Assembly: GCA_022616275.1 (NCBI GenBank)
Contig: JAKEFB010000209.1
Span: 1-64,000, forward strand
Length of the DNA stretch: 64,000 nucleotides
Reading direction: 5' to 3'
Source of the DNA: Chloroflexota bacterium
GTDB lineage: Bacteria > Chloroflexota > Anaerolineae > Promineifilales > Promineifilaceae
Part shown: positions 20,097 through 23,576 of the stretch, in pieces
Position numbering within the stretch: position 1 is the stretch's first letter
Layout: each line of letters starts with the position of its first letter
Notes under the pieces: model-generated
The model's input: the letters and a program-made list of their open reading frames with translations, nothing else
Databases searched by the model: none
Told to the model about the DNA's origin: nothing
Made by a program: the position numbers and the translations under genes

Positions 20097-21026
20097 TTAC
20101 CTGGCGAAGGCCAATACGTAAAGGTGCTCGGCCAATAGTTCAATGATATGCCGGTGGGCAAGGCGGGCGCGCCAGGCGTTGGGGATGGACTGCTCGCCGT
20201 AGTAGGCCCCGGCCAGTTGGCCGTAGATAGCGGCCGTGGTGTCGGCGTCGTCGCCCAGGTTGGCGGCGAGCAGGCAGCCGTCGCGGAAGTTATCGCTGTG
20301 GTCGAAGGCCCACAGGGCGGCTTCTAAGGAGCGGACGACGTAACCGGTGCCCTGGATGTCTGGTGGTTGGCGGACTTTGAAGGAGCCGCCGGCGACTTCA
20401 GCGATTTCCGGGGCCAGGAACTGGTCGTCCCAGTAGCCGGGGACGGGAGTATAGCGGGGGGCAAGCAAATCCTCTTTGGCGGTCCCGTTGAGCGCTCCCA
20501 CCAGGAGCGCGCCAAAGTAGTGGCAGGCGCTGACGGCGGTGGCGGCGCCGTGGGTGGTGTAGGAGCTGTCGCCAGAGCGAGCAATGGCCAGGGCGGGGTC
20601 GGCTGCAAAGAAGAGGGGGACGGGGGCCAGGCGCATCAGGGAGCCGTTGCCGGCCGTATGGGGGCCGGTGGAGCCGGCGTAGGGATTGCCAGTTTGCTCG
20701 AAGCGGTGAAGGGCGTCACGGACGGTGTTGCCAATGTCGAAGCAGCGGCCGGTGCTGCTGTGGTAGCCCTCATGGTACCAGCGCAGGTAGCGCCGCATCT
20801 GATCGGCCGGGTCGAAACCGCCGCAGGCGACCAGGCTTTCGGCCAGGCAAAGGGCCATGGAGGTATCGTCGGTCCACTGGCCCGGTTCCAGGTGGAATGG
20901 CCCGCCGCCGACCATATCGGCGATGGGGGTGAAGGTTCCCGGCGGCCGGAACTCCAGGGTCGTGCCCACGGCGTCGCCGGCCGCCAGGCCCAGCAAAGCG
21001 CCGCGATACCGTTCAAGCAGTTCCAT
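20097..21026 (-). CDS. ADP-ribosylglycohydrolase family protein
   Basis: This 309-residue DraG/ARH-type hydrolase removes ADP-ribose from proteins or small molecules using two metal ions. It has [13 protein letters not shown]-like opening residues, the first metal motif WTDDTSMAL (about 51-59), GNGSLMR (about 126-132) and the second metal motif [10 protein letters not shown] (about 258-267). No DraT or other ADP-ribosyltransferase gene is nearby, so the substrate is unknown. The ATG at 21026 precedes a region of twin palindromes. Confidence 0.9.
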
Positions 21027-21043
21027 TGTTGCCTCCCGGCGAG

Positions 21044-21062
21044 AACGATTTTCAAAATCGTT
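21044..21062. repeat. Palindrome AACGATTTT-C-AAAATCGTT, copy 1
   Basis: A perfect 9+1+9 palindrome 18 bases upstream of the ADP-ribosylglycohydrolase start. A second copy lies 29 bases away centre to centre. Confidence 0.9.
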
Positions 21063-21072
21063 TTACAGGGTG

Positions 21073-21091
21073 AACGATTTTCAAAATCGTT
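21073..21091. repeat. Palindrome AACGATTTT-C-AAAATCGTT, copy 2
   Basis: Identical to copy 1 and extended by one further pair (G...C). The two copies lie between divergent genes, so they could be operators for one or both, or a mobile palindrome pair. Confidence 0.9.
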
Positions 21092-21217
21092 CTACAAGGG
21101 ACATCCTTCATGTATAAGTTGTGATTATTGTCACTATTGGCATGGCCTGGGTTGGCATACACTCAAGATAGAAGTTATTGGTTATTGGTTATTAGGTGAA
21201 TTTGGAGAGCATTGAGT

Positions 21218-21676
21218 ATGTCACCCAGAGTCCGCTTTTTCTTGTCTATTGTACTGCTAATGGCGCTGCCTAGTCTATTAGTAAGTGGCTGCGCCGGCGG
21301 GGCGGCCGGAGGGGAGGAGACGCACGAGCTCCATATGGCGCCGCTAGAGAAGATGCCCCAGGAGGTGCAGCGTCTCCCGGCGCGGATCCAGGAGGCGTAC
21401 CGTTACGCCGTGGCCAATTACGACTTTCTCAGCCAGATCCCTTGCTATTGCGGTTGTGGCCCGCTGGGGCACAAGTCGCTGTACGATTGTTACGTGGATG
21501 GCGTGGCGGCCGACGGCACCGTTATCTATGACTGGCACGCCACGGGCTGCACGATTTGCGTGGATATTACTCACGACACGGTGCAAATGGCCAGGGAGGG
21601 TAAGGCACTCAGCGCCATACAGAGGATCATTCACATTGAGTATTCGCGGTACGGGCCGCCGACAGTCTTGGAGTAG
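21218..21676 (+). CDS. PCYCGC-motif lipoprotein
   Basis: This 152-residue exported lipoprotein has lipobox LVSGC (Cys25) after a hydrophobic signal. The family motif is PCYCGCGPLGHKSLYDCYV (about residues 70-88), with a further C-T-I-C pair (GCTICVDI). The conserved cysteines and His point to metal or redox chemistry outside the membrane, but no function is established for the family. The next two genes (DUF1573-like, TlpA/DipZ-like) suggest a thiol or copper-handling set. The ATG at 21218 has GGAG 10 bases upstream; a TTG at 21212 is possible. Confidence 0.85.
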   Translation: MSPRVRFFLSIVLLMALPSLLVSGCAGGAAGGEETHELHMAPLEKMPQEVQRLPARIQEAYRYAVANYDFLSQIPCYCGCGPLGHKSLYDCYVDGVAADGTVIYDWHATGCTICVDITHDTVQMAREGKALSAIQRIIHIEYSRYGPPTVLE

Positions 21677-21733
21677 GGGTGTGGGGGTGTAGGGGTGTGG
21701 AGGTGTAGTTGTGTGGTTGTGTGGTTATGTAGG
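21677..21733. repeat. TG-rich octamer tract
   Basis: GGGTGTGG, GGGTGTAG and TTGTGTGG words repeat between the lipoprotein and the DUF1573-like gene. It is related to the tracts at 15583 and 43036. Confidence 0.7.
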
Positions 21734-21747
21734 AAGGAATGAAAGGT

Positions 21748-22236
21748 ATGAATCATAATCGGTCGAAGCGGGTGGGGGACAGGCGGAAGCGCCAGGCAGG
21801 GGCACCAGCGCCATTGTTACTGGGGGTGGCCGGGTTGTTGTTGATTGTCGGGGCATTGTTGGCTTATTTGGGGGCCGGGTCGGAGTCTACGAAGTGGGGT
21901 GGGACGCCGCAACTGGTAGTAGACCAGGAGCGGATGGATTTTGGTGACGTGCAATTGGGTGAATGGGTGACGGCTTCCTTTACCCTGAGCAACACCGGGG
22001 ACGGGCCGGTGCGTTTTACGGAAACACCCTTTGTCGAAGTCGCGGCCGGGTGCTGACCGCCGACGCCGACCATCGGTTCGATGGTTATACAACCGGGTGA
22101 CAGCACGACATTATCCATGTCGTTTATGATGCACGAGGGTATGGAAGGGCCGCACGATTTTCGGGTCCATTTACCGAGCAACGATCCACAGTGGGAGAGC
22201 CGGACGTTGGTGGTTCTGTCGAATTGGGTGGAGTAG
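21748..22236 (+). CDS. DUF1573-like protein with in-frame TGA: candidate selenoprotein
   Basis: One frame runs 162 codons with a single TGA at 22054-22056 (codon 103). Before it are an N-terminal membrane helix (LLLGVAGLLLIVGALLAYLG) and a DUF1573-type beta domain (MDFGDVQLGEWVTASFTLSN). After it come PPTPTIGSMVIQPGDS, FMMHEGMEGPHDFRVHLPSN and VVLSNWVE, which are conserved-looking and uninterrupted. Relatives, as recalled, have GCCPP here; this gene has GC-TGA-PP, so the stop replaces a cysteine exactly. A 7-bp hairpin (22069-22085) with G at the loop start follows at a distance suited to a bacterial SECIS. Alternatives are a pseudogene by TGC-to-TGA mutation or a sequence error. AGGAAGGA precedes ATG 21748; ATG 21739 is also possible. 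No selA, selB or selC lies in the window. Confidence 0.75.
22069..22085 (+). promoter_or_regulatory. Candidate bacterial SECIS hairpin
   Basis: ACCATCG-GTT-CGATGGT lies inside the coding frame after the TGA at 22054-22056. The loop begins with G, 19 bases after the TGA, within the 16-37 base range given for bacterial SECIS elements. Folding was done by eye. Confidence 0.6.
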
Positions 22237-22241
22237 GAAAG

Positions 22242-22288
22242 AGATTGGGGATTGGAGATTGGTTTCATCAATCTCCAATCTCTAATCT
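22242..22288. repeat. Inverted heptamer element
   Basis: AGATTGGGGATTGGAGATT faces AATCTCCAATCTCTAATCT across 9 bases, with three mismatches. It is made of AGATTGG-like heptamers and could terminate the DUF1573-like transcript. Confidence 0.8.
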
Positions 22289-22333
22289 CCCTCTTCTTGA
22301 CGAGGGAGAGCTAATTGGCTATACCAGGCGGGC

Positions 22334-23449
22334 ATGAGCGAGAGGTTGTTGAACCGGCCGATTGTCCGCATGCCGGAATTTGCAGAGGGAGAGTGGCTGA
22401 ATAGGCCGCGGCCGTTGAGCCGGGCCGAGCTGCGCGGCCAGGTGGTCCTGGTTGATTTCTGGGATTACACCTGCATTAACTGCATTCGGACGCTGCCCTA
22501 CCTGAGCCGCTGGCACGAACGCTACGCGGACAAGGGCCTGACTATCGTCGGCGTCCATGCCCCTGAATTCAAATTTGCCAGGGCCCGGCCGCAAATCGAG
22601 GCGGCTATTGAGGAGTTTGGCATCCGTTACCCGGTGCTGCTGGACAATGAGTACCAGACGTGGGAACGGTTTGCCAACCGGGCCTGGCCCAGCAAGCACC
22701 TGGTAGATACGGAGGGGTACATCCGTTACCATCGCCAGGGAGAGGGGTATTATGCGGAAACGGAGGAGGCCATCCAGACCCTGCTGCGCCGGCGTGACCC
22801 GGCGGTGAGCCTGCCGGAGGTGCTGCCGCCGCTGCGGGGCGAAGATACACCGGGGGCGGTGTGTTACCGGCCGACGCCGGAGCTGTACGCCGGCTACCAG
22901 GGAGGCGGGTTGTTCGGCGGGGCGCTAGGCAACCCGGAAGGGTACGTCACCGGGGGCACGATGGCGTACACGTTGCCAGAGGCGGCGAAACGAGAGCGGG
23001 GACATTTCTATGTGGAAGGGTTCTGGCGGGCCGAGCCGGAGGCAATGGTCTACGCCGGACAGGAGGGTGGCCGGATTGTGTTACCTTACCGGGCGGCCGG
23101 GGTGAACGTGGTAATGAGCCCGTCCAGCGACCCTGTGGCCCTGGCGTTGAATTTGTGGCCCGGCGATTGGCCATCGCTGGTCGAGGTACGGCAGGATGGC
23201 GGGCCACTAACCCCGGTCACGGCCGGGGTTGACGTTACTTTTGACAGCCAGGGCCGGAGCCAGATAGTGGCCGACCGGCCGCGCCTGGTAGCGCTGGTAC
23301 AGAATCCTGATTATGAGGCCCACGAGTTGGAATTGATTTTCCACGCTTCCGGCCTGGCGGTGTACGCCTTTACCTTTACCATCTGTGTGACGACGCCAGG
23401 GGCGGTACAAAATCGCGGTTTCAATGAAGATACTTTTCGTGTAAAATAA
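22334..23449 (+). CDS. TlpA/DipZ-like thioredoxin-fold protein
   Basis: The N-terminal thioredoxin domain carries the redox motif CINC in DYTCINCIRTLPYL (about residues 48-61). Segments HAPEFKFARA and WPSKHLVDTEG, the cis-Pro loop, follow. From about residue 215 a beta-rich domain (HFYVEGFWRAEPEAMVYAG) resembles the C-terminal carbohydrate-binding-like part of DipZ. Such proteins pass electrons to extracytoplasmic thiols, usually fed by a CcdA/DipZ membrane part, which is absent here. No signal peptide is visible, so export or a cytosolic place is open. It is third in the redox cluster and may service the PCYCGC and Cys/Sec proteins. Confidence 0.87.
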   Translation: MSERLLNRPIVRMPEFAEGEWLNRPRPLSRAELRGQVVLVDFWDYTCINCIRTLPYLSRWHERYADKGLTIVGVHAPEFKFARARPQIEAAIEEFGIRYPVLLDNEYQTWERFANRAWPSKHLVDTEGYIRYHRQGEGYYAETEEAIQTLLRRRDPAVSLPEVLPPLRGEDTPGAVCYRPTPELYAGYQGGGLFGGALGNPEGYVTGGTMAYTLPEAAKRERGHFYVEGFWRAEPEAMVYAGQEGGRIVLPYRAAGVNVVMSPSSDPVALALNLWPGDWPSLVEVRQDGGPLTPVTAGVDVTFDSQGRSQIVADRPRLVALVQNPDYEAHELELIFHASGLAVYAFTFTICVTTPGAVQNRGFNEDTFRVK

Positions 23450-23576
23450 GAAGATGATTAGACTAAATACCCATTGACTTGGCCCGCTTCATCTGCTACG
23501 GTGGGGTATCCCTCTCCGGAGTATGCGCTCTTATGGAAGAGGCAGCCTCTCTATTTTATCTGAAGGAGGACATTAT

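Follow-up and report, generated by a model that had tools for sequence, protein, structure and literature searches.

Does the in-frame UGA codon of a DUF1573-like gene in this Chloroflexota genome encode selenocysteine (Sec), or does it end the protein? The gene lies in a stretch of 64 kb that was analysed as a whole and is called the window here. A preliminary description, made from the sequence, had proposed the gene as a candidate new selenoprotein. The frame was found as described there. It runs from 21739 to 22236, ends with TAG, and its sole in-frame TGA stands at 22054-22056 in the context GC-TGA-PP (more fully, FVEVAAGC-U-PPTPTIGSM). The peptide after the TGA stays in frame and reads as it had been quoted. 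The features of the gene are as follows; our own numbers are used for genomes (G), contigs (C) and loci (L).

21739 to 22236, forward strand: DUF1573-like putative selenoprotein gene, 165 aa when read with Sec106, TAG stop at 22234-22236
22051 to 22053, forward strand: TGC codon for Cys105, adjoining Sec106; conserved as Cys in all 147 aligned relatives
22054 to 22056, forward strand: UGA codon, residue 106, assigned to Sec from the comparison of TGA and Cys codons in 148 relatives
22129 to 22155, forward strand: MHxGMxGPH motif, residues 131-139; M131, M135 and H139 in 147 of 147 relatives, candidate soft-metal ligands

Predicted product and the part after the UGA

From sequence and a predicted model, the product is likely a membrane-anchored, exported Ig-like (DUF1573/ASH-type) protein. 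It passed the Pfam gathering cut-off of DUF1573 (PF07610; 33.2 bits, cut-off 26.1) and the cut-off of the Ig-like HYDIN/VesB family PF22544 (37 bits, cut-off 25.5). A single N-terminal membrane segment was judged by eye at residues ~25-45, and the Ig-like domain covers residues ~57-165. A PDB sequence search matched chains of Hydin and FAP74 (E 3e-7 to 3e-5) and, at E 0.2-0.5, two DARPins. The fold search matched Ig-like folds of the ASH/PapD/VesB/HYDIN type, and among its matches there was no metal site that could be judged.

If the UGA were an ordinary stop, the gene would encode a 105-aa protein ending in AAGC, and the rest would be a remnant or a separate unit. The Table 11 ORF of 105 aa does end at this UGA. 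However, the downstream part is in frame, is conserved in 123 TGA genes and has low dN/dS in the tested pairs. Downstream lie the invariant residues M131, M135 and H139 and three of the eight predicted strands of the domain, and the Cys homologues run straight through. For dN/dS, Sec genes were paired when their downstream parts had the same length and shared 60% or more identity (751 pairs, 282 with usable dS). The median was 0.14 past the hairpin and 0.22 ahead of the UGA in these 282 pairs, which are not independent. We consider an ordinary stop very improbable.

Codon 106 in relatives and the downstream hairpin

A read-through search of 397 genomes of the class with the window protein gave matches in 105 genomes. 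Rows stronger than E 1e-10 were taken as members. The 52 weaker rows were left out; none had stops, they resemble ordinary DUF1573 proteins or short pieces, and one of them is the second piece of the G213 gene lying in L100. After re-extraction, 91 distinct genes were obtained, with codon 106 being TGA in 83, TGT in 4 and TGC in 4. TGA genes were present in 64 genomes and Cys genes in 7, both forms occurring in G129 and G247. L108, a partial match reported with three TGAs, was counted among the TGA rows. L100, a TGA copy broken by a frame change, was left out of the hairpin, tree and residue counts. In L022 (G129:C380), a Sec copy and a Cys copy stand in tandem within one genome.

A scan of named genomes with a single protein found nothing, and an alignment query was needed to find relatives there. 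The alignment-based scan gave 92 relatives, and the best 80 of the 92 comprised 79 distinct genes (60 TGA and 19 Cys), 22 of which were already known. The union of the class search and the best 80 of these 92 contained 148 distinct relatives, 124 with TGA and 24 with TGC or TGT. This ratio should not be taken as a frequency, because one of the two scan patterns spells GCCPP, which favours Cys forms, and because the best 80 of 92 were used. The 24 genes place Cys at the site of the TGA, and the GCCPP form ascribed to family relatives in the preliminary description does exist.

The carriers were mostly Anaerolineae-type MAGs. The other titles were single records of Acidimicrobiia, Actinomycetes and Acidobacteria and two of Rokubacteria/Rokuibacteriota. 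The 397-genome class sample includes 31 other genomes of the window's taxonomic family, and all of them lacked the TGA gene, which indicates that the window copy is sporadic and perhaps horizontally acquired. PanB, encoded on the same contig, was compared as a guide to whether the contig belongs to the genome; it shared 65-73% identity with genes of 4 family members and up to 72% with others in the class, which fits either answer.

A sequencing or assembly error, or a pseudogene, with TGC or TGT as the true codon might also be considered, since TGA is one base from TGC and the genome bin is a draft. Against this, 124 distinct genes, of which 83 come from 64 sampled class genomes, have the TGA at the same codon, and the hairpin after it is in register in all but two shifted genes of 123. 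The recurrence in 64 class genomes means that a read error is not credible. An error of this kind is extremely improbable.

In bacteria, Sec insertion requires a stem-loop that follows the UGA closely and whose loop opens with G. Such an element was found in the window gene.

22069 to 22085, forward strand: bacterial-type SECIS hairpin, conserved 6-bp stem 22069-22074/22080-22085, loop GGUUC; basis: comparison, fold and covariation

In the window gene a C-G closing pair adds a 7th pair, so that 22069-22075 pairs with 22079-22085 around the loop GUU (22076-22078). The 7-bp hairpin of the preliminary description is thus present, and the 19 bases given there separate the TGA from the loop; the stem itself starts 12 nt after the TGA. 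The 30-nt piece 22063-22092 folded into 8 bp, one of them G-U, at -9.7 kcal/mol, and 3 of 200 shuffles were as good. A 47-nt piece including the UGA preferred a different fold (-14.4 kcal/mol), with 62 of 200 shuffles as good, so the window sequence by itself is modest evidence. The hairpin case is convincing because of the comparison of TGA and Cys genes across relatives and because the stem is conserved with covariation.

A fixed register was used for the stem (columns 16-21 with 27-32, counted from the T of the TGA). In the 123 TGA genes without L100, all 6 pairs were formed in 115 and 5 of 6 in 6 genes; in the two exceptions, L081 and L096, the full set of 6 pairs is formed three bases (one codon) further downstream. 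Five of the 24 Cys genes had 5 or 6 of 6 pairs (L135, L136, L155, L156 and L170), and L135 and L136 retained all six. In a free hairpin search the mean score was 17.9 for TGA genes (13-22, n=83) and 12.4 for Cys genes (9-18, n=8); the best-scoring Cys gene was L083, with a 7-bp hairpin whose loop differs. When the protein was fixed and the codons were recoded synonymously, TGA genes attained the observed stem in a mean of 17% of trials and Cys genes in 65%.

Covariation was measured in an alignment of 121 sequences (A3), from which L081 and L096 were left out. The proportion of paired cells was 99.2%, against 88.9% after shuffling. There were 115 cells altered on both sides; shuffles gave 40.9 +/- 4.1 and slid registers no more than 33. 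The covariation score was 0.446, compared with 0.238 for shuffled and at most 0.277 for slid alignments. Two of the five covariation measures (3 both-side-changed pairs and 7 further pair types) were equalled in 500 of 500 shuffles. With the register slid by +3, 70.5% of the cells still paired. Kinship can beat shuffles without structure, so the slid control answers this point only in part.

The exchange of A-U for G-C in the stem demands covariation of the residues at U+6 and U+9. Among the 123 TGA genes these were Val/Thr in 77 and Ile/Met in 39, and the 24 Cys genes had 13 combinations. The loop starts with GG in 89 of 121 TGA genes and with AG in 32 of 121, in agreement with the G expected in a bacterial SECIS.

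In Rfam, searched with 21000-23500 at E up to 10, nothing resembling a SECIS was matched. The 12 matches were all far under the gathering scores, and 10 of the 12 were miRNA models; nine of these fell on a palindrome after the selenoprotein gene and the tenth on a repeat close to 21045. The remaining two were unrelated RNA families. The palindrome lies just 3' of the gene (22242-22290, GATTGGGGATTGGAGATTGG...CAATCTCCAATCTC) and may be terminator-like or a mobile repeat. The repeat is a short palindromic sequence, GAACGATTTTCAAAATCGTT, in two copies at 21041-21095, on the 5' side of the PCYCGC gene.

A quick tree of 147 proteins was built from 115 columns, with 65 of 144 inner branches open. 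Ten changes between Sec and Cys were needed on it, 8 of them forced by well-supported branches, against 22.5 with shuffled labels. The Cys form at L155:4001-4345 keeps 5 of 6 stem pairs, and its nearest relative, L162 of the same MAG, is a Sec form. L155 looks like a recent change from Sec to Cys.

Selenocysteine machinery and known selenoproteins

The window genome, G000, has 8.53 Mb in 309 contigs (98.25% complete, 5.5% contaminated). It was searched for the genes of Sec insertion, and all those named as a check in the preliminary description were present: tRNA-Sec (70.2 bits, ARAGORN agreeing), SelB (334 bits), SelA (569 bits) and SelD (366 bits). These genes sit on contigs other than that of the window. 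The SelD gene has its own in-frame TGA in CAG-U-ASKLGP, which we take to be the usual SelD Sec site. In the class, SelA was over the cut-off in 316 of 397 genomes. Because SelA is so common, its co-occurrence with the TGA gene gives weak support. Of the 64 TGA genomes, 56 had a SelA match of E 1e-90 or better; among the other 8, SelB was over the cut-off in 6, and G128 and G355 had neither SelA nor SelB. Five genomes had Cys forms only; G252 and G246 had both SelA and SelB, and in G288, G222 and G326 neither was over the cut-off.

An open frame is also what would be seen if UGA were reassigned genome-wide to Trp, Gly or Cys, and nothing else favours this reading. TGA is the terminator in 24 of the 91 distinct class-search genes, which speaks against wholesale reassignment. 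The homologues have Cys rather than Trp or Gly, the hairpin is conserved, and SelA, SelB, SelD and tRNA-Sec, the one UGA-decoding tRNA that was sought, are present. We regard such a reassignment as hardly conceivable. In the preferred reading, SelB with Sec-tRNA would decode UGA 22054 as Sec owing to the hairpin 12 nt downstream. On this comparative evidence, we put the probability that the window gene encodes a selenoprotein at about 0.9. For the family as a whole, computational evidence makes Sec insertion at the UGA nearly certain.

The claim of novelty has to be narrowed. The Sec reading was supported by comparison, but a DUF1573 selenoprotein is already known. OS_HP2 (PF07610; NF041425) likewise has a Sec-containing Ig-like domain of the DUF1573 superfamily, and its motif is given as UGC in the tables of PMC13188914 and PMC9312934. 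The window protein has G104-C105-U106 and no UGC motif of this kind. It scored 21.4 bits with the OS_HP2 model NF041425, whose curated cut-off is 100, and none of 249 class genomes reached this cut-off. L221 (G169) was considered as an OS_HP2-type selenoprotein and rejected, as its only in-frame TGA passing the filter is far upstream of the domain.

Ordinary DUF1573 proteins in the class carry CGCT. When the present family was compared by profile with these CGC-type proteins (probability 99.1%, E 4e-19), G104-C105 aligned with the GC of CGC, and U106 and the next residue formed a two-residue insertion. The U of OS_HP2, as taken from the printed motif, would correspond to the first Cys of CGC, whereas Sec of the present family follows the second Cys. 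The 2026 review PMC13188914 describes families differing in Sec position as distinct subfamilies. Each of the family tables of PMC13188914 and PMC9312934 has a single DUF1573 entry, the UGC one, and none of the GCU type. The family was not met in the portions of the deep-Sep paper PMC12013277 that were consulted. The groundwater-MAG survey of Deng et al. 2026, cited in PMC13188914 as reporting further candidates, may contain it. With OS_HP2 compared by its printed motif, the present family appears to be a DUF1573 selenoprotein subfamily with Sec at a new place.

The vicinal Cys-Sec pair had been called unusual, and it is, but it is not unique; it may also be strongly redox active, as the preliminary description proposed. 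In the table of PMC13188914, a CU motif is also given for SaoC, SaoL, HgcA, MbdU, KCU-star and the CopZ-family 2Fe-2S protein form 2, which belong to other domain families. Several of these are tied to metals there, and one is named for a copper chaperone family.

Neighbouring genes and proposed function

Two genes flank the selenoprotein gene in the window.

21212 to 21676, forward strand: PCYCGC gene (PF13798, OS_HP4/CYCXC-like), Cys form, 62 bp upstream, lipobox seen by eye
22334 to 23449, forward strand: thioredoxin/TlpA-like gene (CINC, Thioredoxin_10 C-terminal domain), 97 bp downstream

The window PCYCGC copy scored 60.6 bits with NF041379 (cut-off 90). The neighbourhood was sampled in 109 of 148 regions, those extending 3 kb or more upstream and 1 kb or more downstream; the regions are not independent and the counts are raw, without a matched background. 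Neighbours were named by Pfam for five representatives, and CopA and multicopper oxidase by eye from sequence. Within 5 kb, the 109 regions had PCYCGC in 72, COX2-like in 66, polyferredoxin-like (Fer4_5) in 54, Cu-ATPase-like in 40 and multicopper-oxidase-like genes in 12. A common gene order was PCYCGC, cupredoxin, polyferredoxin, cupredoxin/cytochrome c and selenoprotein. Of the 75 members of the COX2 cluster, 58 had CxxxCxxxHxxM, 48 had CXXCH and 36 had both. In the 64 kb of the window, six neighbour types were sought and only PCYCGC was found. When G000 was searched with one of the COX2-like neighbour proteins, the matches were weak (best E 9e-11) and no clear partner emerged. The copper context is therefore that of the relatives rather than of the window copy.

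OS_HP4/CYCXC (PCYCGC, PF13798; NF041379) is a different protein family from the present one, but a neighbour of it. In 3 of 49 distinct matched copies (L058, L063 and L065), the conserved Cys of PCYCGC was TGA, in HAFG-U-(S/T)IC, which fits the UxxC listed for OS_HP4 in PMC13188914. At these three loci, two selenoproteins of different families would stand close together.

Relatives of the downstream thioredoxin/TlpA-like gene also contain TGA. A second G000 gene of thioredoxin-like type, C294:41070-41510 (L225), has TGA in G-U-INC; a TAA was also reported in its search match, and none lies within the aligned stretch. In L225-L231, TGA replaces the first Cys of CINC (UINC/UMNC); all 7 of 7 had TGA, having been picked since stops had been reported in them. 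A hairpin-like sequence was seen by eye after the TGA of L225. L225-L231 are probably UxxC thioredoxin-like selenoproteins.

C105, U/C106, M131, M135 and H139 are invariant in the 147 aligned relatives. The probably exported Ig-like domain would carry a vicinal Cys105-Sec106 pair and the set M131..M135...H139. From these residues and the neighbours, we give about even odds that the product is a protein of the cell envelope that handles soft metal (Cu(I)), thiol-selenol chemistry or both. For example, it might receive or reduce copper, or the cysteines of Cu sites, for CuA-type cupredoxin/cytochrome c proteins and PCYCGC lipoproteins, and the adjacent thioredoxin-like protein (22334..23449) could hold the Cys-Sec pair reduced.

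The main rival to a copper or soft-metal function is a selenoprotein that handles no metal and whose Cys-Sec pair serves simply as an oxidoreductase centre of thiol-selenol type or as a peroxide/disulfide reductase centre. According to PMC13188914, the uncharacterized selenoproteins of prokaryotes are for the most part believed to be redox proteins, which would suit a plain redox role. A thioredoxin-like neighbour in the window and DsbD/CcdA-like neighbours in some relatives point the same way. However, the predicted fold is Ig-like and not thioredoxin, Met, Met and His are invariant, and many neighbours resemble copper proteins. A plain redox role is a serious contender, somewhat short of an even chance.

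Sco1 and PCuAC are copper chaperones of the CuA site. An analogy with them may be proposed, as the present protein would also be exported, combine a thiol with Met/His ligands and have CuA-type neighbours. Sco carries CxxxC, and the present family has a Cys-Sec pair instead. Sco proteins also have a thioredoxin-like fold, unlike the Ig-like fold predicted here. As a tentative and rather doubtful proposal, the protein could be a widespread, exported, selenium-based copper chaperone of Ig fold, in which Cys-Sec, two Met and a His form a Cu(I) site serving CuA-type proteins and PCYCGC lipoproteins.

If this proposal is true, Anaerolineae and the bacteria with which they exchange genes would have a route of copper delivery in the envelope, in which the PCYCGC clients themselves sometimes contain Sec. 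Set on an Ig-like fold rather than at a site of the usual thioredoxin type, and accompanied by invariant Met/His and by neighbours resembling copper proteins, the vicinal Cys-Sec pair would allow a direct test of whether bacteria use Sec as a copper ligand. Genes of the family may be annotated as truncated or missed where the UGA is taken as a stop, and a family present in 64 of 397 sampled class genomes may be largely unseen. The repeated switches between Sec and Cys would also let the reasons for keeping Sec be studied as a natural experiment.
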